From NCBI RefSeq assembly GCF_018967865.2, contig NZ_JAHLZY020000001.1:3596001-3660000 (forward strand): DNA of 64,000 nucleotides, read 5' to 3'. Each line of letters begins with the position of its first letter. Position 1 is the first letter of the stretch. Made by a program: the position numbers and the translations under genes. Below the pieces are notes generated by a model, which saw only the letters and a program-made list of their open reading frames with translations, did not search any database and was not told the DNA's origin. Below, in pieces: positions 51,257 through 63,823 of the stretch. This stretch comes from Hymenobacter siberiensis. GTDB lineage: Bacteria > Bacteroidota > Bacteroidia > Cytophagales > Hymenobacteraceae.

Positions 51257-51973
51257 TTACAGCTGGCCTTTTTTGGCGGCCTTCTGCATCTTGTCGTTGG
51301 CGAAGATGGCTACTTCTACGCGGCGGTTGGCCGATTTGCCGGCGGCGGTAGCGTTGTCGCCCACGGGCTGGGTAGCGCCGTAGCCGGTGGCCGTGATGCG
51401 GCCCGAGTCTACGCCCTGGCCCTGAATCTCGTTCGACACGGCCTGGGCCCGACGCTCCGACAGGGGCTGGTTGATGGCATCTGAGCCCGAGCTATCGGTG
51501 TGGCCTTCCACCACCACGCTGGTATCAGCATACTTCTTGAGGGTGGTGGCCAGCTGGTCGATGTTGCCGGCAGCTTCCGGGGTCAGGTTCGACGAGTTGG
51601 TGCCGAACAGGATGCCCGATGCAAAGGTAATTTTGATGCCTTCGCCCACGCGCTCTACAGTTGCGCCTTCCAGGTCGCGGCGCAGCTCGGCGGCCGCCTT
51701 ATCCATTTTGCGGCCGATGAGGGCACCCGCCGTACCACCTACTACAGCCCCAATGATGGCCCCTTTGGCCGTGCCCGACTTACCGCCAATCAGGCGGCCG
51801 GCCACGCCACCAACTACGGCACCACCCAGGCCACCAATGAGGCCGCCTTTGAGGGTTTTGCTCATGCCCTTCGGCTTGGCAGTCGAAACGGTAGAGGTCT
51901 GGGCTTGCGCAAAATTGTTTACCAGCAGCAGCAGGGCGAACAGAAACGCAATGGATGAACGAAGAAATTTCAT
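51257..51973 (-). CDS. OmpA-domain protein with glycine zipper
   Basis: 238 aa from ATG 51973 (MKFLRSSIAFLFALLLLVNN), signal peptide ending FAQAQ. A glycine-zipper segment follows (GGLIGGLGGAVVGGVAGRLI then KGAIIGAVVGGTAGALIGRK), and the C-terminal OmpA domain binds peptidoglycan: VVVEGHTDSSGSDAINQPLS, RAQAVSNEIQGQGVDSGRIT, GYGATQPVGDNATAAGKSAN, RRVEVAIF. No lipobox, unlike its close paralogue at 52654-53400. Probably periplasmic, associated with the wall. Confidence 0.93.
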   Translation of the reverse strand: MKFLRSSIAFLFALLLLVNNFAQAQTSTVSTAKPKGMSKTLKGGLIGGLGGAVVGGVAGRLIGGKSGTAKGAIIGAVVGGTAGALIGRKMDKAAAELRRDLEGATVERVGEGIKITFASGILFGTNSSNLTPEAAGNIDQLATTLKKYADTSVVVEGHTDSSGSDAINQPLSERRAQAVSNEIQGQGVDSGRITATGYGATQPVGDNATAAGKSANRRVEVAIFANDKMQKAAKKGQL

Positions 51974-52123
51974 GTTAAAAAAAGGTTTGGATAAAAAATA
52001 CCAGCAAAAATCGCGGTGTGCGAACAGGCCGGCAAGTACGCCATTTGCAACCACCTTGCCAAACTCCTCGGGGCCAGCGCGCCTTTTGGCCCTCCCAACT
52101 CATTAGCCGGCTCGTTCAACCAC

Positions 52124-52155
52124 AAAAAAGGCCCTGCCGGGTGGCAGGGCCTTTT
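52124..52155 (-). terminator. Terminator after the 52192-52470 gene
   Basis: AAAAAAGGCCCTGCC pairs with GGCAGGGCCTTTT around GGGT. Confidence 0.85.
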
Positions 52156-52191
52156 ATAAGCGCGATAGCCTATCGGCGTAGCGCGGCCGAA

Positions 52192-52470
52192 TTACTTCTT
52201 TTTGTGGTAAGCGTTGTAGCGGGCCGGGTCTTTTTTCTTGTCTTTGTTGCGGCCAATCAGGCCGCCGCCAATCACGCCGGCTACCCCGCCAATAATGGCC
52301 CCTTTACCGCCGCCAATCACGGCACCCGTCACGGCACCCGCACCGCCGCCAATGGCCGCGCCTTTGGCCTTATTACTCCAACCTTTTTTGGGCGTCTGGG
52401 CCTGCGCACTGGTGCCGGCCAGCACGAACAGCATTAAAAACAAAGCGAATACTACACGCAGGGATTTCAT
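52192..52470 (-). CDS. Small glycine-zipper protein
   Basis: 92 aa. Signal peptide (VVFALFLMLFVLAGTSAQAQ) followed by a glycine zipper (KGAAIGGGAGAVTGAVIGGG, KGAIIGGVAGVIGGGLIGRN) and a Lys-rich tail (KDKKKDPARYNAYHKKK). It lacks the OmpA domain of its two neighbours but its zipper is closely similar in pattern. Glycine zippers pack helices in membranes or at the envelope. It stands between the two OmpA paralogues with its own terminator. Confidence 0.8.
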   Translation of the reverse strand: MKSLRVVFALFLMLFVLAGTSAQAQTPKKGWSNKAKGAAIGGGAGAVTGAVIGGGKGAIIGGVAGVIGGGLIGRNKDKKKDPARYNAYHKKK

Positions 52471-52582
52471 AATTCAGGAGGTTAAAGTTTATGGGAGGGA
52501 TTACGGGATTTCAACGCATACCAGGCGGGCAGGGTTGCTGAAGAAAATGCGTCTGTTTGCGCGCCCAAGGCTTCCGCATTCA

Positions 52583-52619
52583 CAAAAAAAAGGCCGCCCC
52601 GGTGGAGCGACCTTTTTTT
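52583..52619 (-). terminator. Terminator after the 52654-53400 gene
   Basis: AAAAAAAGGCCGCC faces GAGCGACCTTTTTTT, an imperfect stem with long A and T runs, 35 bases past the stop. Confidence 0.75.
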
Positions 52620-52653
52620 GCATACCGGGCAGCAGTGGCCCGACAAATACTGC

Positions 52654-53400
52654 TTACAAACGGCCTTGCTCGGCCGCTTTCTTCATCTTTTCGTTGGCGT
52701 AGATAGCGATTTCTACGCGACGGTTGGCCTGCTTGCCTTCGGCCGTGGTGTTGTCGCCCACGGGCTGGGTCGAGCCGTAGCCCTGAGTGGTGATGCGGCT
52801 CGACGAAACACCTTTGGCGATGGTGGAGTTGGCCACGGCCTGGGCCCGGCGCTCCGACAGGGGCTGGTTGATGGCATCCGAACCCGAGTTATCGGTGTGG
52901 CCTTCCACCAGCACGTTGGTATCGGGGTATTTCTGGAGAATGGCAGCCATCTTGGTGATGTCCGATTCCGAAGCCGAACGCAGCGTAGCCGAGTTGGTAT
53001 CGAAGAGGATACCCGAGTCGAAGGTAATTTTAATGCCTTCGCCCACGCGCTCAACCTTGGCGTTCTGCATGTCTTTTTGCAGGTCTTCGGCCTGCTTATC
53101 CATTTTGCGACCAATGATGGCACCCGTGGTACCACCCGCAGCAGCACCTACGATGGCCCCGATAGCCGTGCCCTTGCCACCGCCCAGCAAGCCACCAACT
53201 ACGCCACCAAGAATAGCACCACCACCAGCGCCCAGCAGGCCACCTTTAACGGTTTTGCTCATGCCACTTTTGCGGGCACCGGTACCGTTGTTGGTCGAAA
53301 GATCGGGCTGCGTGGAGCTGGCTTGCTGCGAAGTGGCGCAGGAGCTAAACAGCAGCACGAAAGCCATCAATACAGAAAGAAGGGATTTGGAGGTGTTCAT
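52654..53400 (-). CDS. OmpA-domain lipoprotein with glycine zipper
   Basis: 248 aa. The signal peptide ends in LLFSSC, a lipobox, so the protein is lipid-anchored at the cysteine, unlike the paralogue at 51257. A glycine zipper (GGLLGAGGGAILGGVVGGLL) and the OmpA domain (VLVEGHTDNSGSDAINQPLS, RITTQGYGSTQPVGDN, KQANRRVEIAIYA) follow. The region MSKTVKGGLLG to ERVGEGIKITFDSGIL is strongly similar to the 51257 protein (MSKTLKGGLIG, ERVGEGIKITFASGIL), marking a tandem duplication followed by a change of anchoring. Confidence 0.93.
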   Translation of the reverse strand: MNTSKSLLSVLMAFVLLFSSCATSQQASSTQPDLSTNNGTGARKSGMSKTVKGGLLGAGGGAILGGVVGGLLGGGKGTAIGAIVGAAAGGTTGAIIGRKMDKQAEDLQKDMQNAKVERVGEGIKITFDSGILFDTNSATLRSASESDITKMAAILQKYPDTNVLVEGHTDNSGSDAINQPLSERRAQAVANSTIAKGVSSSRITTQGYGSTQPVGDNTTAEGKQANRRVEIAIYANEKMKKAAEQGRL

Positions 53401-53512
53401 GTGAAAATGAGGGGGTTGGTGAAGTTGTGTTCAGCCCTTATACGGAAAAACCCGTTCCGGGGCTGGAAGCGGATTTTTCAAGAAGTGTGCCGAAAACGAA
53501 AAGTGCCTTTTT

Positions 53513-54421
53513 TTATTGTTGGTGGGCCTTGGTAGCGGCGCGGCGCGGCGCGGGGGCACTGGCGGCGGCGGCCGGCGCGGGCTGCAGCATGCCCAGCAGG
53601 TTGGCCAGGCGCTGCTTCAGCTCGCGGCGGTCCACGATGAAGTCGAGGAAGCCGTGCTCCAGCACGAACTCGGCGCTCTGGAAACCCTTGGGCAGGTCCT
53701 TGCCGATGGTTTCCTTGATGACGCGCGGGCCGGCAAAGCCGATGAGCGCGCCGGGCTCGGCAATGTTAAAATCGCCCAGCATGGCAAACGAGGCCGTGAC
53801 GCCGCCCGTGGTGGGGTCCGTCAGCAAGCTTACGTAGGGCACGCCGGCTTCGGAGAGCAGGGCCAACTTGGCCGACGTTTTGGCCATTTGCATGAGCGAG
53901 TAGCCGGCCTCCATCATGCGGGCCCCGCCGGAGCGCGAAATCATCAGAAACGGCGTGCGGGTCTGGCGGGCGTAGTCGATGGCGCGGGCAATTTTCTCGC
54001 CCACCACCGAGCCCATCGAGCCGCCGATGAACTTGAAATCCATGGCCGCCACCACCAGCGGCTGGCCGGCGCTCAGGCCGTGGGCGGTGCGCACGGCATC
54101 TTTCAGGCCGGTATTGCGCTCGGTGGCCTCCACACGCTGCGGGTAGGCTTTGGTATCCACGAAGTGCAGCGGGTCGCCGGAGGTGAGGTTGGCATCGAGC
54201 TCCGTGAATCCGCCCTGGTCGAAGAGGAATTCGAAGTAGTCGATGGCATCAATGCGGCCATGGTGGCTGCAATTGCCGCAAACATGCAGCAGGCGCTTGT
54301 GCTCGGCCATAGTGGCCACGGTTTTGCACTCGGGGCACTTGTACCAGAGGCCGTCGGGAGTCTCTTTTTTCTGGTCGGTGGGGGTCACAATGCCCTTTTC
54401 TACGCGCTTGAACCAGGCCAT
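53513..54421 (-). CDS. accD: Acetyl-CoA carboxylase carboxyltransferase beta subunit
   Basis: Transfers CO2 from biotin to acetyl-CoA with AccA, starting fatty-acid synthesis. 302 aa. The N-terminal four-cysteine zinc finger is in [15 protein letters not shown] and [14 protein letters not shown]. The crotonase-type core has [40 protein letters not shown] and [20 protein letters not shown]. It ends in an Ala/Pro-rich tail. No accA is in the window. Confidence 0.97.
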
Positions 54422-54796
54422 ATTTCGTTTAACTAACAGCTGCCAGCACGGGGCTGTCAGCTTGAATTTTTAGATGGAAAAGCCGCCGGCTTCGGGCGTG
54501 CAGCGGCAAATTACAGGGCATCAAAGATAAGCCATAACTATTGCCATCTTTCGCAAAATCCTTGGTGGCAGCGGGCTGGCGTGGTTTGGCGCGGGCAAGG
54601 CCGCTGCTTTGGCGCGGCACCCAGCCCCAAACGGAGGCGGGAATGGGCTTCGTTCGCGGTGTTTCCAGCATCGATTCCAAAACCTGTCCGGAGTGGTATT
54701 TTGCTAGGCTGAGCGCGGGTTAAGCGCTACCTTGCCGGGCCAACGCGGCCGGGCAGTCCGACCGCCGATGGCCCGGCGCTGCGCCTTTTTATCCCC
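54422..54796. other. Divergent gap between accD and an OmpA-type gene
   Basis: No gene or repeat is recognised in these 375 bases. A TACCTTG box lies at 54728-54734, with TTTTG at 54699, but the spacing (about 24 bases) is longer than the usual 18-21. Confidence 0.3.
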
Positions 54797-55813
54797 GTGA
54801 AAACCTTCTCCCCTGCCCTGCTGGGCCTTTACCTGCTGGCCGCCCCGGTGCTGAACAGCTGCGTAACGGCCAAGAAATACGACGACCTTAGCGCCCGCCA
54901 GCGGGCCGATGCCGATGGCAAAGCGGCCGCCGAGCGGCAGTACCGCGGCGCTACCGCGGAGCTGCAAAAGGCCAGCGACGAGCTGGCTCAGCTGCACCTC
55001 ACCCAAAAGCGCCTCGTAACGGACTCGGCCGAAACCGGCAATGCCTATCGCAAAACCCGCAGCCTCTACAACGAGCTGAACAACAGCTACGACAAGCTGC
55101 TGAAAAACAGCGACCGCGAGCTGGCCAACAAGTCCTCCGACTACAACAAAGTGGCCAAAGACCTGGCCCGCCGCGAAGCCGAGCTGGGCTCCCTGGAAAC
55201 CACGCTGCAGAAAAGCAAAGCCGATAACGACCGCCTCGCCGTCGACCTCAAAACCCGCGAGGTTCGCCTAACCGAGCTCACCAAAGCCCTGGCCGAAAAG
55301 GACAAAGCCGTGGACGACCTGAAGGCCCGCGTGAGCAAGGCCCTGCTCAGCTTCAACAGCAGCGACCTGCAGGTGAAGCTGAAGGACGGCAAGGTGTACG
55401 TGTCGCTGTCGGAGCAGCTGCTGTTCAAATCGGGCTCGACGAAAGTGGACCCCAAGGGCCAGGAGGCGCTAAAAAATCTGGCCACCGTGCTCCAGGAGCA
55501 GAAAGACGTGAACGTGGTGGTGGAAGGCCACACCGATAACGTGCCCATCCGGTCGGGCACGGCCGGCATGACCGACAACTGGGACCTGAGCGCCCTGCGC
55601 GCCACCGAAATTGCGCGCCTGCTCACCACCGCCGGCGTGGCCCCGGAACGCGTCACGGCCTCGGGCCGCAGCCAGTACGTGCCCGTGGCGGCCAATGACT
55701 CGCCCCAGAACAAGGCCATGAACCGCCGCACCGAGATTATCCTCACGCCCAAGCTAAACGAGCTGTTTAAGATTCTGGACAGCAATTCGGCTACGGCGGC
55801 CACGGGCAAGTAG
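54797..55813 (+). CDS. Coiled-coil OmpA-domain lipoprotein
   Basis: 338 aa from GTG at 54797. Signal peptide with lipobox APVLNSC (around residue 22), then a long helical coiled coil (about 35-185: ADADGKAAAERQYRGATAEL, LYNELNNSYDKLLKNSDREL, ETTLQKSKADNDRLAVDLKT) and a C-terminal OmpA peptidoglycan-binding domain (VEGHTDNVPIRSGTAGMTDN, WDLSALRATEIARLL, MNRRTEIILTP). The layout resembles MotB/PAL-like wall tethers without the motor helix. Single gene, followed by a hairpin-rich element. Confidence 0.9.
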   Translation: MKTFSPALLGLYLLAAPVLNSCVTAKKYDDLSARQRADADGKAAAERQYRGATAELQKASDELAQLHLTQKRLVTDSAETGNAYRKTRSLYNELNNSYDKLLKNSDRELANKSSDYNKVAKDLARREAELGSLETTLQKSKADNDRLAVDLKTREVRLTELTKALAEKDKAVDDLKARVSKALLSFNSSDLQVKLKDGKVYVSLSEQLLFKSGSTKVDPKGQEALKNLATVLQEQKDVNVVVEGHTDNVPIRSGTAGMTDNWDLSALRATEIARLLTTAGVAPERVTASGRSQYVPVAANDSPQNKAMNRRTEIILTPKLNELFKILDSNSATAATGK

Positions 55814-56017: not shown

Positions 56018-58825
56018 CTAAAAAGCCACGTTGACGCGGCCGAAGTAGAATGCGCCCTGGAAGCCGAACTGGCTGGCATTGTACACGAAACGGCCCCGGT
56101 TGGTGTTATCGAGCGAAGAGCTGTAGCTCTGGGCCGGGTCGACGGAGAAGTTGTTGGGGTCGTTGCGCGGGTTCTGGATGATGCGGTCGGGGTACACGTC
56201 GAACAGGTTGTTGATGCCCACGGCTACGCCCACCTGCTTGATGACCTGCACGCTGAGCGTGAGGTCGGTAATCCACTTGGCCGAGTAGGTCTGGTCGAGG
56301 AACGAGCGGGCCGGGTCGGCATCCTTGGTCTGCACCTCGCCGAAGCGCACACTGCGGGCTTCGAGGCCGAAGATGCCGTAGGTGTAGTTGGCCGAGAGCA
56401 GGATTTTGCTGCGCGGGTTGCCGTTTTCGAGGCGGGCACGCTGCTGGCGGTCAAACAGCGTGTTCTGGAGGTTGCTGGTGCCCACGGTCGCATCGTTGTT
56501 GATGGTCGTAGACGTGCTGTTGAAGCTGCGCACGGTGGTTTCGTTGAAGTTGGCGGCAGCCGTCAAGGCCAGGCGGCCTTTCTCGCCCAGCGGAAGGCGG
56601 CTGTTGGCCACAATGTCGATGCCCTGGGTGCGGGTATTCACGGCATTGGCGAAGAACTGCACCCGGCTCACGGGCAGCGTGCCCAGAATGGTGTTCACAA
56701 TAGCGTTGGTGCGGGTAAAGGCCGACGACAGCACAATGCGGTCGTCAATGTCAATCTGGTAGGCATCCACGGTCAGCGTGACTACCTGGGCCACGCGGCC
56801 GGTCAGGCCCAGGCTGTAGTTGCGCGAGTTTTCCTGCTTCAGCGGAGCCACCCCGAAGCCCTGCTGGCCGGTGCCGCCCACCGTGTAGCTGTTACGCACG
56901 ATGGGGTTTTCGTTGTTCACCGTCAGCACCTGGTTGGGTACGCCGCTGATGAACTGGGTGCTCACGTTGGTGAAATAGCGCTGTTGCAGCGAGGGGGCCC
57001 GGAAGCCGTTGCCCAGCGAGCCGCGCAGGGCCAGCCCGTCCACGATGCTAAAGCGGGCGGCCAGCTGCCCGCTGGCACTGCTGCCGAAATCGGAGTAGCG
57101 CTCGATGCGGCCGGCGGCGTGCACCAGCAGCTTTTCGGTTATATCGCTTTCCAGGTCCACATAGCCAGCCACGTTGGTGCGGCTTCTGATTACCTCGTCG
57201 GAGGGCTGATAGCCAGGAAACACCTGCGAGCCCGACGCCGTGGGCGTGGTGCCAATCAGGCGCCCGCCGTTGATATAAGAATTACGTTCCCCGGCCTCAA
57301 TCTGAAACTGGTCGCGGCGGTACTCGCCGCCAAAGGCCACGTTCAGCGTGGCCAGCGGGCCCAGCTCGGTGAACTTGCGCGCCAGACCCAGATTGGTCGT
57401 GTTTTGCATGAAGGTGAGCGTGCCGGCATAAAACTGCTGTTGGGCAAAGCCCTGCGGCAGCGAGGCATTCACGGTATTACTGATGTCGTAGCGCACCTGG
57501 TTGCGGCCGAAGGTATTGCTCGCGTCGACCGCGAAGCCGCCAATGGTTTTGCGTAGCCCCGTGATAATCGACTGGTCGTTGATGGTCGTGTTGATAAACG
57601 GCAGGAAGCCATCGGGGAAAACGGTCAGGTCGCTTTGGGTGGCTTGGTTGGGCAGGCGGGCAAAGCCGGCCGACTTGCCCGTGCGGTACGTGGCCCCGCC
57701 CGACACGTAGGCCTCTACTCCACCGCCCAGCCGGTAGCCCGCGTTCAGGAAGCCCCCAATGTTGCGGGTGGCGGCGCTGCCCACGCGCAGGTTGTTGCGG
57801 TCGTAGCCGCGGTCGGCCACTATTTTATCATCAGCCGCCTTGAGGTCGCGGCGCTTCTGCTCGGTGTCGGCGGCGGTGCCGCCGGGGTACTGGCCACTGT
57901 TGTTACCTAAGTAAATGAGCGGGGCCGTGTCGGCTAGGCCGCGGTTGAAGTAGTCGTGATTTTGGAATTGCCCGCTCAGGTCCAAGAAGCCGCGTCCGCC
58001 CAGGCCAACCCCCACGTTGGCATCGGCCTGAAACACGCTGCCATCGTTCTGGGTGGTCTGTCCGGCGGTGCTGCTGGCCGTCACGCCGGTGGAATCGTCC
58101 TTCAACTGGATGTTAATCACGCCGGCGATGGCATCGGAGCCGTAGAGGGCCGCTGCGCCGTCGCGCAGCACCTCGATGCGCTTGATGCTGGCCGTGGGAA
58201 TCACGTTCAAATCGGTGCCCACCGAGCCGCGGCCCACCGTGCCGTTGATGTTCACTAGGGCCGAATTGTGGCGGCGCTTGCCGTTCACGAGTACCAGCAC
58301 CTGGTCGGGGCCGAGGCCGCGCAGGCTGGCGGGGTCAATATGGTCGGTGCCGTCGGAAATAGTCTGGCGCGCACTTTGGAACGAGGGTGCCAGATAAGAC
58401 AGAATCTGAGCCACGTCGGTCTGGGCAAAGGCCTTGATTTCGCGGGCCGAAATCACATCCACCGGCGCAGTGGTCAGGATGTTGGAGCGGCCCTCGGTAG
58501 CGCGCGAGCCCGTTACCACCACCTCGTTCAGGTCCTGGGCAGCAGCCAGCAGACGCACATTGAGGCTGTTGCGGCCGTTGAGCGGAATCTGCTGGGTGGT
58601 GTAGCCAATGGCCTGCACCGTGATAGTAGCCCCGGGATTGACCGAGAGTGAAAACTCGCCGTTGGCACCCGTACTGGTGCCGTTAGAGGTGCCGCGCTCC
58701 AGCACCGTGGAGCCGGGCAAGGCCTCGCCGGAGGCCCCCACCACCCGGCCGCTTACGGCAATCTTTTGGGCCTGGGCCGCAGTCGCACCCAGCAGCAGAA
58801 AGAGAAACAGTAGAAGGTTTTTCAT
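56018..58825 (-). CDS. TonB-dependent outer-membrane receptor (first of two paralogues)
   Basis: 935 aa. Signal peptide (LLLFLFLLLGATAAQAQ), CarboxypepD_reg-like domain (VSGRVVGASGEALPGSTVLE, residues 22-105), plug domain (NEVVVTGSRATEGRSNILTT, VDVISAREIKAFAQTDVAQI, ASLRGLGPDQVLVLVNGKRR, VLRDGAAALYGSDAIAGVIN) and a barrel ending in GFQGAFYFGRVNVAF, with the terminal phenylalanine of outer-membrane proteins. It is closely similar along its length to the protein at 59208. No adjacent SusD, hydrolase or binding-protein gene, so the substrate is not obvious; siderophore or sulfur-compound uptake are candidates. Confidence 0.95.
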   Translation of the reverse strand: MKNLLLFLFLLLGATAAQAQKIAVSGRVVGASGEALPGSTVLERGTSNGTSTGANGEFSLSVNPGATITVQAIGYTTQQIPLNGRNSLNVRLLAAAQDLNEVVVTGSRATEGRSNILTTAPVDVISAREIKAFAQTDVAQILSYLAPSFQSARQTISDGTDHIDPASLRGLGPDQVLVLVNGKRRHNSALVNINGTVGRGSVGTDLNVIPTASIKRIEVLRDGAAALYGSDAIAGVINIQLKDDSTGVTASSTAGQTTQNDGSVFQADANVGVGLGGRGFLDLSGQFQNHDYFNRGLADTAPLIYLGNNSGQYPGGTAADTEQKRRDLKAADDKIVADRGYDRNNLRVGSAATRNIGGFLNAGYRLGGGVEAYVSGGATYRTGKSAGFARLPNQATQSDLTVFPDGFLPFINTTINDQSIITGLRKTIGGFAVDASNTFGRNQVRYDISNTVNASLPQGFAQQQFYAGTLTFMQNTTNLGLARKFTELGPLATLNVAFGGEYRRDQFQIEAGERNSYINGGRLIGTTPTASGSQVFPGYQPSDEVIRSRTNVAGYVDLESDITEKLLVHAAGRIERYSDFGSSASGQLAARFSIVDGLALRGSLGNGFRAPSLQQRYFTNVSTQFISGVPNQVLTVNNENPIVRNSYTVGGTGQQGFGVAPLKQENSRNYSLGLTGRVAQVVTLTVDAYQIDIDDRIVLSSAFTRTNAIVNTILGTLPVSRVQFFANAVNTRTQGIDIVANSRLPLGEKGRLALTAAANFNETTVRSFNSTSTTINNDATVGTSNLQNTLFDRQQRARLENGNPRSKILLSANYTYGIFGLEARSVRFGEVQTKDADPARSFLDQTYSAKWITDLTLSVQVIKQVGVAVGINNLFDVYPDRIIQNPRNDPNNFSVDPAQSYSSSLDNTNRGRFVYNASQFGFQGAFYFGRVNVAF

Positions 58826-59094: not shown

Positions 59095-59154
59095 AGCCAT
59101 TCAACAGAAATTCCCAACAAGCCTCACCATTTTAGCATCCTGGGACCAGGCAGC

Positions 59155-59188
59155 AAAAAGCCAGCCCCGGACGCGGAGCTGGCTTTTT
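59155..59188 (-). terminator. Terminator after the second TonB receptor gene
   Basis: AAAAAGCCAGC pairs with GCTGGCTTTTT around CCCGGACGCGGA, 19 bases past the stop of the receptor at 59208-61979. Confidence 0.85.
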
Positions 59189-59207: not shown

Positions 59208-61979
59208 TTACAGCGTGAAATTCACGCGGCCGAAATAGTACGCGCCGCTGAAGCCGAACTGGTTGGAGCCGTAGGGGAAGCGGCCCCGGTTGGTGCCGTC
59301 CAGGGTGGTGTAGGTCAGGCTCTGCTCGTTATTGTTGGGGTCCTGGTAGAGGCGGTCGGGGTACACGTTGAACAGGTTGTTCACGCCTATGCTCAAGCCG
59401 ATGTTCTTGATAACCTGGGCGCTGATAGTGAGGTCGGTCACCCATTTGGCCGAAAAAGTCTGGTCGATGTAGGAGCGGGTGGGGTCGGCGTCTTTGGTCT
59501 GCACCTCGCCGAAGCGCACAGTGCGCAGGTTCAGGCCGAAGATTTTGTAGCCGTAGTCGGCGCTGAGGTTGATTTTGCTGCGGGGCTGGCCGTTTTCGAG
59601 GCGAGCGCGCTGGGCGCGGTCAAACAGCGTGTTTTGCAGGCTGGGGTTGTTGTCGATGGTGGCAGAGCTGTTGAAGCTGCGCACCGTGGTTTCGTTGAAG
59701 TTGGCGGCGGCCGTCAGGGTCAGGCGGCTATCGGGGCCGAGGGTCAGGCGCTCATTGGCCACAATGTCGATGCCTTGGGTGCGGGTGTTCACGGCATTGG
59801 CGAAGAACTGCACGCCCTGCACCGGGTTCTGGCCGGGGCGCGGGTTGGCGGTGAGGATGGCAGCCACGGCCGGGTTGCCGCGGCTGAACTGTGAGCTGAG
59901 CACAATGCGGTCGCGGATGTCAATCTGGTAGGCGTCCACCGTCAGGGTGATGGCTTTGAAGAGGCGGGCCGTGAGGCCCAGGCTGTAGTTGGTCGACTTT
60001 TCCTGCTTCAGCGAGCCAATGCCGAAGGCTTTGGTAATGGCGTCGTCATTACTGGTAGTCAGCACTTCACGTAGTTCGCCGCTGGTAAACTGGGTGCTGG
60101 AGTTGGTGAAGTAGCGCTGCTGGAGCGAGGGGGCCCGGAAGCCGTTGCTGAGCGCGCCGCGCAGCGCCAAGCCATCAAGAATGCTATAGCGGGCGGCCAC
60201 TTTGCCGCTCACATTGGAGCCAAAATCGGAGTAGCGCTCGGCGCGGCCGGCCACGTCCACCAGCAGCTTGTCGGTGAGGTCGCTTTCTAAATCGACGTAG
60301 CCCGACACGTTGTTGCGGCTCTGGTTCAGGGCATCGGTCGGCCGGTAGCCCGCAAAACCCTGCGAGCCGGCGGCGGCGGGGCTGCCGTTCACCTTGCGGT
60401 CGCCAAGGATATAGGAGCCTACATCACCGGCATTAATCTGGAAATTATCAACCCGAAACTCGCCACCAAACGCCACGTTCAGCGTGGCCAGCGGGCCCAC
60501 TTCGCTGAACTTGCGGGTGAAGCCCAGGTTGGTGGTATTCTGCTGAAAAGCCAGCTCGCCGGCGTAGAAGCTGGTGGGGCTGGTACCTACCGGCAGCGAG
60601 GCGTTGAGGGTGTTGCTGATGTTGTATTTCAGCGCGTTGCGGCCGTAGGTATTGCTGAGGTCGGCGGCGAAGCCGAATACCTTGCCGCGCAGGCCCACGA
60701 TGGCCGAGCCGTCGTTCACGGTGCTATTGATGAAGGGAAGGAAGCCATTGGGGTAGATGCTGGCATCGGTTTGGGTAACGGCCGTGGGCAGGCGGTAGAG
60801 CGCGCCCGACGAGCCCGTGCGGCGCGTGAGGCCACCCGAGAAATACGCTTCAAGGCCGATGCTGGGGACCAGTGTGTAGGCCGCATTCACAAAGCTGCCG
60901 TAGGTGCGGGTATCGGCGCCGCCCACCCGGATGTCGCGGCGATTAAAGCCATTCTGGGCCACCAGGGCATTATCGCGGGCTTTCAGGTCGAGCTTTTGCT
61001 GGTCGGTGAGACCGGCGGGGTAGTTACCGCCACTGGTGCCCAGGTAGATGAGCGGGGCCGTATCGAGCCCGCTGCGGTCCACGTAGCTGCGGTTCGAGAA
61101 CTGGCCGCTCACGTCCACGAAGCCCCGGTGGCCGAGGCCGAAGCCCAGGTTGGCATCGGCCTGAAACAGCTGGCCGTCGCTCTTGGTGGTCTGGCCGGCA
61201 GTGCTGCTCACGCTGATGCCGGTGGTGTCGTCCTTCAGCTGAATGTTGATGACGCCGGCAATGGCGTCGGAGCCATACTGGGCCGCCGCGCCATCGCGCA
61301 GCACCTCAATCCGCTTGATGGCGGCCGGCGGAATCACGTTCATGTCGGTACCCACCGAGCCGCGCCCGGGCGTGCCGTTGATGTTGACGAGGGCCGAAGT
61401 GTGGCGGCGCTTGCCGTTCACGAGCACCAGCACCTGGTCGGGGCCCAGGCCGCGCAGGGTGGCGGGGTCCACGAAATCGGTGCCGTCGGTCACGGTCTGG
61501 CGCGTGCTCTGGAACGAGGGCGCGATGTAGGTGAGAATCTGGGTGATGTCGGTCTGGGCGTAAGCCTTGATTTCGCGGGCCGAAATCACGTCCACCGGCG
61601 AGGTGGTGAGGATGTTGGAGCGACCCTCGGTGGCGCGCGAGCCGGTGACCACCACTTCGTTCAGCTCGGTCTGGTTGGCGGCGAGGCGAATTTCGAGGGT
61701 GGTGCGGCCGTTCAACGGCACGGTTTGCGTGAGCGAGCCCACGGCAGAAAACACCAGCGTGGCGGTGCCGGGCACGTTGTTGAGGCTAAAACGGCCGTCG
61801 CCGTCGGTGCTGGTGCCGTTGGAAGTGCCTTGCTGGAGCACGGTCACGCCGGGCTGGGTCTGGCCGGTGGCGTCGAGCACGCGGCCGGTTACGGTGAGGT
61901 TCTGGGCCCAGGTGGTGGCGGCGGTCAGCCACAGGAGCAGCGCCACCAGCCCGATGCGGGTAGTTGTGGGGTGTATCAT
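59208..61979 (-). CDS. TonB-dependent outer-membrane receptor (paralogue downstream of a polycysteine leader)
   Basis: 923 aa. Signal peptide (ALLLWLTAATTWAQ), CarboxypepD_reg-like domain (VTGRVLDATGQTQPGVTVLQ), plug domain (NEVVVTGSRATEGRSNILTT, VDVISAREIKAYAQTDITQI, ATLRGLGPDQVLVLVNGKRR) and a barrel ending GFSGAYYFGRVNFTL. Long blocks are identical to the paralogue at 56018, showing a tandem duplication. The mRNA leader between 61980 and 62324 holds a 13-codon frame ending in six cysteine codons, about 300 bases upstream of the start, so expression is probably tuned by cysteine supply. Its substrate may therefore be a sulfur compound; this is inference. Confidence 0.95.
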   Translation of the reverse strand: MIHPTTTRIGLVALLLWLTAATTWAQNLTVTGRVLDATGQTQPGVTVLQQGTSNGTSTDGDGRFSLNNVPGTATLVFSAVGSLTQTVPLNGRTTLEIRLAANQTELNEVVVTGSRATEGRSNILTTSPVDVISAREIKAYAQTDITQILTYIAPSFQSTRQTVTDGTDFVDPATLRGLGPDQVLVLVNGKRRHTSALVNINGTPGRGSVGTDMNVIPPAAIKRIEVLRDGAAAQYGSDAIAGVINIQLKDDTTGISVSSTAGQTTKSDGQLFQADANLGFGLGHRGFVDVSGQFSNRSYVDRSGLDTAPLIYLGTSGGNYPAGLTDQQKLDLKARDNALVAQNGFNRRDIRVGGADTRTYGSFVNAAYTLVPSIGLEAYFSGGLTRRTGSSGALYRLPTAVTQTDASIYPNGFLPFINSTVNDGSAIVGLRGKVFGFAADLSNTYGRNALKYNISNTLNASLPVGTSPTSFYAGELAFQQNTTNLGFTRKFSEVGPLATLNVAFGGEFRVDNFQINAGDVGSYILGDRKVNGSPAAAGSQGFAGYRPTDALNQSRNNVSGYVDLESDLTDKLLVDVAGRAERYSDFGSNVSGKVAARYSILDGLALRGALSNGFRAPSLQQRYFTNSSTQFTSGELREVLTTSNDDAITKAFGIGSLKQEKSTNYSLGLTARLFKAITLTVDAYQIDIRDRIVLSSQFSRGNPAVAAILTANPRPGQNPVQGVQFFANAVNTRTQGIDIVANERLTLGPDSRLTLTAAANFNETTVRSFNSSATIDNNPSLQNTLFDRAQRARLENGQPRSKINLSADYGYKIFGLNLRTVRFGEVQTKDADPTRSYIDQTFSAKWVTDLTISAQVIKNIGLSIGVNNLFNVYPDRLYQDPNNNEQSLTYTTLDGTNRGRFPYGSNQFGFSGAYYFGRVNFTL

Positions 61980-62282
61980 CAGTAAAAAAGAGAGGGAAAT
62001 AAAACAGGTTTCCGGCAGCCCAGAGAATGGGGTTTAGGCCGGATTAACCCAAAAAAAAGAAAAGCCACGGTGTCGACTGGCGAGAGCCACCCACGAAGCA
62101 GCTCTGCCCGGCAAGGCACCCATAAATTTCACAAATAGCATATACCAGAAACACCCAAACGGGTTACGCGACTGGCCCGCCAGCAACGCGGCAGTTGCTA
62201 CGTTGGAATCAGACACCCGCACTTTTCTGGACTGGCATTCAGCCGGGCAAGGCACTCAGGCACTCCCAGCCAACACCCTATC
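61980..62282 (-). promoter_or_regulatory. Leader region between the polycysteine frame and the receptor start
   Basis: About 300 bases of untranslated leader on the minus strand. It contains GTGCCTTGCCCGGCTGA and GGTGCCTTGCCGGGCAGA, two similar GC-rich stretches near 62240 and 62110, and just before the receptor a stem GCCAGTC...GTGGC followed by CTTTTCTTTTTTTT (about 62049-62085), a plausible attenuating terminator. An open frame at 62034-62255 looks like chance. Confidence 0.45.
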
Positions 62283-62324
62283 CTAACAACAACAGCAACA
62301 GCATCCTACCACGGCCACGCGCAT
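62283..62324 (-). CDS. Polycysteine leader peptide MRVAVVGCCCCCC
   Basis: Minus strand ATG at 62324 opens a 13-codon frame: M-R-V-A-V-V-G followed by TGC TGT TGC TGT TGT TGT and a TAG at 62283-62285. Six consecutive cysteine codons at the end of a tiny frame are the mark of a cysteine attenuator: ribosome stalling at low charged tRNA-Cys would change folding of the downstream leader. Such polycysteine leader frames are known from mycobacteria upstream of sulfur-assimilation operons. The only gene downstream on this strand is the TonB receptor at 59208-61979. A near-promoter box is not clear. Confidence 0.75.
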   Translation of the reverse strand: MRVAVVGCCCCCC

Positions 62325-62524
62325 GAACGCTGGCAAGCTGGCAAGGTTCGGGGAAAAGCTGGGAGAGGCCAGCCGATTGCCCGATAAGGGGGCGGCTGCG
62401 AGGAATTGTATCACGAGATAAGCATAAAGTCAGATTGCCGGGCCACGGCAGCGGCCGGAATCGAGTGGGTATAAGCGACGGGCGCGGCAAATGTTTTTCG
62501 CATCCGTCTGGTAATTCAAAAATC
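62325..62524. promoter_or_regulatory. Upstream region of the polycysteine leader
   Basis: No gene is visible here. It should hold the promoter of the leader/receptor transcript; AACCTTGC near 62344 on the minus strand is the best -7 candidate but matches poorly. Confidence 0.3.
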
Positions 62525-62623
62525 CTGTCATTCTGAGCTTGCGAAGAACCTTGTCACGGTCGAATAGCCAGGTTCAAATACGTTCCAGCCGTGATAAGGT
62601 CCTTCGCAAGCTCAGGATGACAG
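62525..62623. repeat. Palindromic element, family B (CTGTCATTCTGAGCTTGCGA), copy 4
   Basis: CTGTCATTCTGAGCTTGCGA on the left faces its inverted copy ending CAGGATGACAG on the right; inner CCTTGTCACGG faces CCGTGATAAGG. It shares AAGGTCCTTCGC and AGGATGACA with the copy at 21610-21717. Confidence 0.85.
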
Positions 62624-62663: not shown

Positions 62664-63671
62664 CTACCGCTCCCACCACTGCGAATTCAGTGGACCGGCG
62701 GCTACGTCCATGCGCTGGCCGGGGGCGGGCAGCAGCAGCGGTACTTCGGGCCCGGCGGCTTCGAGCAGGCGTTGCACGGGCTGCCGCCAGGCATGAAAGG
62801 CCAAGTTGAACGTGCCCCAGTGCAGCGGCAGCAGCGGGCAGCCGCCCAGCAGCCGGTGGGCCGCGAAGGCGTGGTCGGGGCCCAGGTGGATATCGGCCCA
62901 CGCGGGGTCGGCAGCGCCGATTTCCAGCATCGTCAAATCGAACGGCCTGTAGGCCTCCCCTATCTGCCGGAAGCCTTCTTCGAAGGGGCCGGAATCGCCG
63001 CCAAGAAACACTTTGTGCGTTGGCCCGAGCAGGCACCAGGAGGCCCATAGCGTATTATTGCTGGTGAGGCCCCGACCCGAGAAATGCCGGGCCGGCGTAG
63101 CCACCAGCGTAAAATCGTCGCCCAACCGGGCCGATTCCCACCAGCTCAGCTCGGTGATGCTGACGGCGGGTACGCCCCAACGGCGCAGGTGCGCGCCCAC
63201 ACCCAGTGGGCAGAAAAACGGCACGCCCGTGCGGCCCAGCACCCGAATGGCGGCGGGGTCGAGGTGGTCGTAATGGTCGTGCGAGAGGACGACGGCGTCC
63301 AGATTCGGCAGCTTATCCAAAGCCAGCGGCGGGACAAAAAACCGCTTCGGCCCCACCAGCTGCGACGGCGACACCCGCTCGCTCCACACAGGGTCGGCGA
63401 GGATGCGGCGGTCATCGATTTCGAACAGCATGCTGCTGTGGCCCAGCTAGGTGGCGCGCAGGGCCGTGGCCGACACGGGGGCCGCCAGGGCAGCAACATC
63501 GGCCCGGAAAGGACCAAGGGGCTTTTGGGGCTCCCGCTCAGCCTTTTCACACAACCAGCGCTTGAGGAGCACGCCGTAGCCGGAGGGCGGGCCAACACGC
63601 GTGGGCACGGCGTTCTGGTAGATTTTGCCGGTGCGAACGGCTTGCAGGCGGGCGGAGGCTACTGGTTTCAT
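62664..63671 (-). pseudogene. MBL-fold metallo-hydrolase gene with an in-frame amber codon
   Basis: From ATG 63671 (MKPVASARLQAVRTGKIYQN) the frame runs through VPTRVGPPSGYGVLLKRWLC to a TAG at 63447-63449 and continues in frame as LGHSSMLFEIDDRRILADPV; related enzymes have Trp there (TWLGHS), so TGG-to-TAG explains the stop. The downstream part has the metal site SHDHYDHLD, then PARHFSGRG and HWGTFNLAFHAW. It resembles the NAPE-PLD/UlaG-like lactamase-fold family. Translation might restart at the Met 8 codons later (63431), but the substrate-facing N-terminus would be missing. Confidence 0.75.
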
Positions 63672-63748
63672 CGCGAGCACAGACGAAGCAGCGGCCGCAA
63701 TGTTTGATGAAGGACCGGAAAGCTGTGCTAAAGGTGGGAGCCCCGAAC

Positions 63749-63823
63749 GTGCTTTCCCAGAGTCGTTGCGCCGGTCTGACCGCCTAGGGCGGTCAGACCG
63801 GCGCAACGACTCTGGGAAAGCAC
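63749..63823. repeat. Near-perfect 75-base palindrome (family D, second copy)
   Basis: GTGCTTTCCCAGAGTCGTTG and the rest of a 37-base arm are matched exactly by the inverted right arm about the centre CCGCCTAGGGCGG. The GTCGTTG/GGTCTGACCGCC core is shared with 55825-55998. It separates the metallo-hydrolase gene from the edge gene. Confidence 0.9.

Follow-up and report, generated by a model that had tools for sequence, protein, structure and literature searches.

A short open reading frame ending in a run of six Cys codons lies upstream of a TonB-dependent receptor gene in Hymenobacter siberiensis, and it is probably a leader peptide that works as a cysteine-responsive, ribosome-stalling attenuator of that gene. 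The frame is conserved in related species, its Cys run is rich in the rare TGT codon, and the same genome carries counterparts at its sulfur operons. The window, meaning the whole analyzed stretch of 64,000 nucleotides, holds the following features around this frame:

62283..62414, minus strand: leader frame of 43 codons with a GTG start, VIQFLAAAPLSGNRLASPSFSPNLASLPAFMRVAVVGCCCCCC-stop (frame search and alignment of 20 sequences).
62286..62303, minus strand: six Cys codons, TGC TGT TGC TGT TGT TGT, followed at once by the stop (sequence and alignment).
62283..62324, minus strand: the 13-codon frame first described here, which is the 3' part of the leader frame (sequence).
62419..62426, minus strand: predicted -7 promoter box, TATGCTTA in the window and TAnnTTTG in relatives, four bases upstream of the GTG.
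62234..62277, minus strand: predicted hairpin starting 5 bases past the leader stop, -17.7 kcal/mol (folding, without a background comparison).
62051..62112, minus strand: predicted terminator-like stem (62064-62112) with a T-rich tract (62051-62063) (folding).
59208..61979, minus strand: gene behind the leader, encoding a 923-residue TonB-dependent receptor with CarbopepD_reg, Plug and beta-barrel parts (frame list, domain searches and tree).
59153..59188, minus strand: hairpin flanked by A and T runs past the receptor stop, a likely terminator (by eye).
56018..58825, minus strand: gene for a 935-residue paralogous TonB-dependent receptor without a Cys leader (frame list, domain searches and upstream gap by eye).

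An earlier note on this DNA had described the frame as one of 13 codons, and minus-strand positions 62324-62283, when checked directly, do read MRVAVVGCCCCCC-stop with a Gly-Cys6-stop ending. It had also placed no other gene between this frame and the receptor, which agrees with the frame list of the window: nothing of note precedes the receptor ATG at 61979. The start codon and length first given had to be revised, since the reading frame extends upstream without a stop as far as a GTG at 62414, and the ATG at 62324 was rejected as the start because it is an internal Met present in only 4 of 19 aligned rows. That such a run is a chance low-complexity repeat is a reading to which we give next to no credence. 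Repeats of TGY are not rare, as a search for six TGY codons gives 19 overlapping matches in the genome, and another frame of six Cys codons plus a stop, L138, is merely an alternative frame of a Leu-rich signal peptide and was rejected as a leader (further Cys-run places of this genome are L139, L142, L143, and L144). Against chance, however, stand the conservation of the run and its position in 18/21 loci and a shuffle test on 19 upstream regions of 470 bases, with 300 dinucleotide-preserving shuffles each. Frames that were started, promptly closed, and carried at least four Cys in a row appeared in 1/5700 shuffles, and runs of at least five in 0/5700, compared with runs of four to six in 18/19 of the real upstream regions.

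Conservation was assessed by scanning a genome collection for the receptor, which returned 53 loci, and by a mechanical search upstream of the receptors for closed frames that are short and hold at least three Cys. The window receptor matches the H. siberiensis protein (L104) at 100% identity and the H. artigasi protein (L065) at 99%, and in a tree of 52 receptors its group has a support of 100 and comprises 21 rows (the window and 20 loci, with the truncated L116 left out). Conservation in close relatives had been named beforehand as one point that could refute the proposal, and a frame ending in Gly, four to six Cys, and at most one further residue was found at 18/21 loci of the receptor's own group, where it begins about 290 to 340 bases upstream of the receptor; these 18 include L104, which is the window's own species, and L116, where the receptor is cut by a contig end. 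Two more loci keep the frame with fewer Cys (CCYCC in L069 and CCW in L100), and a search of the upstream region of L079 found no leader frame. Among distant receptor homologues in other genera, 10 loci of which 9 were usable (the start of L271 is misplaced), no convincing Cys leader was seen; in L270 and L278, CCC is followed by a tail of 13 residues.

Comparison of the aligned sequences shows where the constraint lies. The leader frame is open in 20/20 sequences (the window and 19 loci, with the window and L104 nearly identical; residue 30 is F in the window and P in L104), whereas the other two frames are open in 0/20 and 13/20, although the 20/20 is not independent, as the GTG was chosen by rule in this comparison after first being found in an unguided scan. 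Pairwise differences at the first, second, and third codon positions are 0.467/0.431/0.457 in the leader body (19 rows), 0.021/0.021/0.179 in the Cys columns (19 rows), and 0.126/0.083/0.378 in the receptor gene (18 rows); all of these rows come from related species and hence are not independent. By these figures the receptor gene is under ordinary purifying selection. The body of the leader varies equally at all codon positions and its Gly-Cys end is fixed, so the constraint is of the leader-peptide type: as judged from the alignment, a frame kept with its Gly and Cys codons while its body is unconstrained has the pattern of a leader peptide. The third positions of the run also bear on the possibility that the TGTTGCTGTTGTTG stretch works as RNA, through pairing or as a protein site, with the Cys reading incidental. 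At codons 2, 3, and 4 of the run the third base hardly varies (TGT 19/19, TGC 18/19, and TGT 18/19), two-fold codons of the receptor are less fixed there (36/138 columns), and the string is common to the receptor leader and to the leader of an ATP-grasp gene. Against this stand the frame, which is open in every sequence over an unconstrained body, and other leaders, which differ in string and spacing and are still Cys-rich (MRMRMCCCCPCCC, CMHSCCCC, and CAMRCCCC), which leaves this reading very improbable beside a leader peptide read as Cys codons.

The codon choice within the run adds to the case for a leader peptide. TGT makes up 16/23 of the Cys codons in the four leaders of this genome and 27/316 of those in long frames (p = 1e-12; the background is 88 long frames from the window and 11 other stretches of the genome), and the receptor run of the window has TGT in 4/6 codons. 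Across 17 receptor loci the share is 57/85 in the leaders versus 39/154, and at loci that combine a SAM riboswitch with a Cys frame it is 34/46 versus 2/43 in genus g1, 22/32 versus 3/25 in g5, and 21/25 versus 0/6 in g6. Genus g3 shows no TGT enrichment (30/56 versus 14/31), TGT being common there anyway. By analogy with classical attenuators, from which the link between rare codons and tRNA supply is drawn, the rare codon could make the leader more sensitive to that supply. The ms2i6A37 modification of tRNA-Cys is made with sulfur, iron, and SAM; as most of the conserved codons are the rare UGU, the leader may respond to how tRNA-Cys is modified as well as to its charging.

Counterparts of the receptor leader are found at sulfur genes of the same genome. 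There are four SAM riboswitches in this genome, and three are then followed by a Cys-rich frame: the first precedes genes for an ATP-grasp protein, an SfnG-like monooxygenase, and a permease; the second precedes cysH, with cysI and siroheme synthase further on; and the third precedes a redoxin-like gene, metY, and a MetX-like gene, with a leader that ends in MRMRMCCCCPCCC. Family matches are above the NCBIfam cut-offs for cysH, cysI, and metY and below them for SfnG, MetX, and ATP-grasp. The fourth riboswitch, at the metH operon, is without a Cys-rich frame. Thus, of the four Cys leaders of this genome, three lie behind a SAM-I riboswitch (RF00162). The receptor leader has no match to it, and its 5 Rfam matches up to E = 5 include neither a SAM riboswitch nor a T-box; at Rfam's cut-offs the riboswitch is likewise absent from 17 receptor loci. 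A 20-base Cys-run pattern, GGNTGYTGTTGCTGTTGTTG, occurs at 15 places in 12/61 Hymenobacter genomes (the window's genome and G029 among them being one species), of which 7 are before this receptor, 6 before the ATP-grasp gene, and 2 before an amino-acid permease, and the reversed pattern has 0 matches in the same 61 genomes. A SAM riboswitch is present at all 8 non-receptor places and was not found at L120, the sole receptor locus in that search.

A broader survey took in 124 SAM-riboswitch loci (30 + 30 from two listings, 60 hand-picked among the matches listed, and the four of this genome), with gene classes assigned by short motifs; 68 of them belong to six genera of the family, g1-g6. With a cut-off of at least 4 Cys in 10 codons, a Cys-rich frame is present at 34/40 assimilation or uptake loci of these genera (MetY, CysH, ATP-grasp, permease, and M14-type peptidase) and at 0/20 methionine-branch loci (metH, CGS-like, and hom), whose leaders are shorter; a Fisher value of 5e-11 for this difference is a guide only, given those shorter leaders and the relatedness of the rows. 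The reverse strand of the 40 loci reaches the cut of 4 in 2/40, both at the peptidase. A looser cut of at least 3 Cys gives 40/40 versus 1/20, and since the reverse strand also often reaches 3 Cys (12/47, with families f2 and f3 included), only the cut of 4 is telling. Unassigned to either class are 21/124 loci, 8/68 loci in g1-g6 (L160, L166, L174, L210, L215, L231, L233, and this genome's metH locus). Three of those eight, L160, L174, and L215, reach the cut of 4, and the methionine branch may therefore include an exception; L231, L233, and this genome's metH locus, which further inspection identifies as metH and which lie outside the 20, have 3, 2, and 2 Cys. Among MetY loci at least 4 Cys were seen in 13/15 from g1-g6, in 3/7 from f2 and f3, and in 0/17 from the remaining genomes, so in this sample the spread of Cys leaders is not phylum-wide. 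Several individual loci are worth recording. At L235, L240, L241, and L242 in g6, a SAM riboswitch and a Cys-rich frame (for example, CMHSCCCC) precede a predicted peptidase gene, which from its motif we take to be of the M14 type and which perhaps serves to scavenge peptides for sulfur. In g3, L163 and L167 have an unbroken run of seven Cys codons right up to the stop, in a frame lying between a SAM riboswitch and an ATP-grasp gene, and L174 has a SAM riboswitch and a frame ending in CGCCCCS before a membrane-protein gene. In another family of the class, L252 has a SAM riboswitch, a frame ending in CMELCCSS, and then a SusC-type TonB receptor.

The receptor itself received only generic TonB matches, below the NCBIfam cut-offs, in searches for a specific family name, and among solved structures SusC, siderophore, and B12 receptors match it over the N-terminal and plug parts only. 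A gene for cystathionine gamma-synthase/lyase is in the upstream flank of 17/52 loci by motif, and of 8/21 in the receptor's own group, with confirmation by family search in the three loci tested; in this genome such a gene, identified by motif, is ~5 kb from the receptor. Together with the regulon, this neighbor hints that the receptor would import a sulfur-containing compound. TonB receptors often import metal complexes, and the structural matches include siderophore and B12 receptors, so one might ask whether the peptide itself is the product, either as a Cys peptide that binds metals or thiols or as a nascent chain that senses a metal (copper, for example), with control of a metal receptor as the outcome; copper sensing by a nascent exported protein, through control of translation, is reported (PMC9973294). 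We consider this very improbable, as the body of the frame is without amino-acid constraint and comparable Cys-rich frames precede genes without an evident tie to metals, namely cysH, metY, and permease genes. A Cys-codon leader that reports on cysteine remains the preferred reading.

The paralogue starting at 56018 had been said to have no such leader, and inspection of its 382-base upstream gap by eye found no Cys run in three frames; given the likely terminator at 59153..59188, the second receptor is probably on a separate transcript. The accompanying suggestion that the two copies have split roles does not extend to a general rule, as in some relatives it is the other copy that is preceded by a Cys frame. 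On the paralogue's side of the tree, 7 other Hymenobacter loci have different Cys-rich frames, which end in ADTxCCC (x being any residue) in L083, L086, and L090 and contain several Cys clusters in L087, L093, L095, and L096, and these frames in seven relatives indicate that Cys leaders have been gained or lost on either receptor copy. In L087, L093, and L096, the frame before the paralogous receptor has CCLCCC and CCC, and its first Cys codons seem by eye to lie inside a GCCTGC...GCAGGC stem. Elsewhere in the neighborhood, an MBL-fold hydrolase gene upstream of the receptor (62664-63806, minus strand) is split by an in-frame stop into 63447-63806 and 62664-63431 and is unbroken in relatives such as L065, where it is one frame of ~335 codons. 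Between this gene and the leader, positions 62531-62617 hold an inverted repeat of the GCTTGCGAAG type, and since similar stretches are seen by eye upstream in L068, L070, and L116, it is probably a repeated element; its Rfam matches, to animal microRNA families, are below the cut-off. A long palindrome was noted by eye at ~63749-63823, as were several OmpA-like proteins beside the receptors at 51257-55813.

Upstream of the leader frame, the predicted promoter box speaks to where transcription would begin. Exact TAnnTTTG ending 4 nt before the GTG is present in 9/20 sequences and at 0 of 9309 other positions examined, and TAnnnnTG at the same spot in 12/20 versus 0.25% of other positions; in the window itself the box is degenerate. 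The sigma-A box of Flavobacterium psychrophilum spans -12 to -5 (passages of PMC9723704), and a box placed likewise would put +1 on the G of the GTG, so the receptor leader frame is probably leaderless, as in mycobacteria. A promoter scan gave a sigma-70-like pair at 62433-62405, which would start transcription inside the leader frame and which is weighed down by being of a type that is not usual in Bacteroidota. Bacteroidota do have leaderless mRNAs, though few: passages of PMC9723704 give 5.5% in F. psychrophilum, and for Bacteroides thetaiotaomicron passages of PMC7366714 put the share of 5' UTRs shorter than 10 nt at 3.7%.

A Cys-codon leader at the receptor is well supported, and we infer its workings as follows. 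Judging from the promoter box, RNA polymerase would start on the GTG, and a ribosome would translate the leaderless 43-codon frame behind it. When Cys-tRNA is sufficient, the ribosome would reach the stop and the downstream RNA would take a shut form, which may be either a blocked start region or a terminator-like hairpin with its T-tract. Under a shortage of Cys-tRNA, the ribosome would pause on the mostly rare UGU run at the end of the frame and interfere with the hairpin that starts a few bases past the stop, and the receptor would be expressed and would import its sulfur-containing compound. Folding predictions provide candidates for these parts. A hairpin starting 5-12 bases past the leader stop is predicted in all 9 close sequences, and in 8/9 of them a second hairpin runs straight into a T-rich tract at -76 to -86, some 80 bases upstream of the receptor (the window, L065-L070, and L116), L071 having no such combination. 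Some of the terminator-like hairpins are weak (-6.5 and -9.3 kcal/mol), and the T-tract is clear in close relatives only. A consensus terminator scan did not report the site at 62051-62112 and gave one terminator-like site, at 62024-62011, which is at chance level since shuffles average 1.0. The leader fold is not more stable than shuffles (z = -1.29, with 12/100 shuffles as good), and a conserved attenuator structure was too weak to claim from an alignment fold of 7 sequences, in which 12 of 95 pairs have paired changes and 40 have breaks.

Other proposed members of the regulon would use a leader of this kind downstream of a SAM riboswitch. In Bacteroidota of this family, the arrangement would amount to a two-input sulfur circuit, in which SAM and Cys-tRNA are sensed on one transcript by a riboswitch and a Cys leader in series at the assimilation genes, with a leaderless Cys leader alone at the TonB receptor; our judgment of this wider scheme is evenly balanced.

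The closest known systems are found in other phyla. In mycobacteria, polycysteine leaderless short frames are cysteine-responsive attenuators of the genes behind them, as described in papers that cite Canestrari et al. 2020. The resemblance to these leaders drawn in the earlier note is borne out by a Cys-codon frame that is conserved and fixed in position, with comparable leaders at this genome's sulfur operons. Both kinds are short frames with contiguous Cys codons near the stop, and sulfur or cysteine genes are also downstream of this genome's three other Cys leaders and at 34/40 of the family loci. The leader described here differs in belonging to Bacteroidota, in having an outer-membrane receptor as its target, and in its UGU enrichment, and in this genome the remaining members lie behind a SAM riboswitch, which means that they are not leaderless. 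Homology with the actinobacterial leaders is hard to judge because the leader body is unconstrained. Passages of PMC1262725 predict Cys leader peptides at the cys operons of Mycobacterium and Propionibacterium and at cbs of Bifidobacterium; these share the Cys-codon runs near the stop codon and the lack of a clear terminator, but as described in those passages they are actinobacterial and without a receptor or a SAM riboswitch in series. The uORFC-8-2 motif before cysS of Rhodobacterales, for which passages of PMC8632094 propose ribosome-mediated attenuation, is also an upstream frame with tandem Cys codons, although there two Cys codons lie inside the terminator structure, in another phylum and before another gene. 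Leader-peptide attenuation has been suggested within Bacteroidota for F. psychrophilum (PMC9723704), at short leader frames before amino-acid operons, and for B. thetaiotaomicron (PMC7366714), but the passages concerned name no cysteine leader and no receptor. In open-licence PMC full texts, among the matches listed, no published cysteine attenuator was found either in Bacteroidota or in control of an outer-membrane receptor.

If the proposed attenuator is true, Bacteroidota would join Actinobacteria and Alphaproteobacteria as users of cysteine leaders, and SAM riboswitches and leader peptides would be shown to work in series. A sulfur regulon in Bacteroidota would become readable from sequence, and a Cys-rich frame before a receptor would provide a rule for guessing the sulfur substrates of some TonB receptors that lack a known function.
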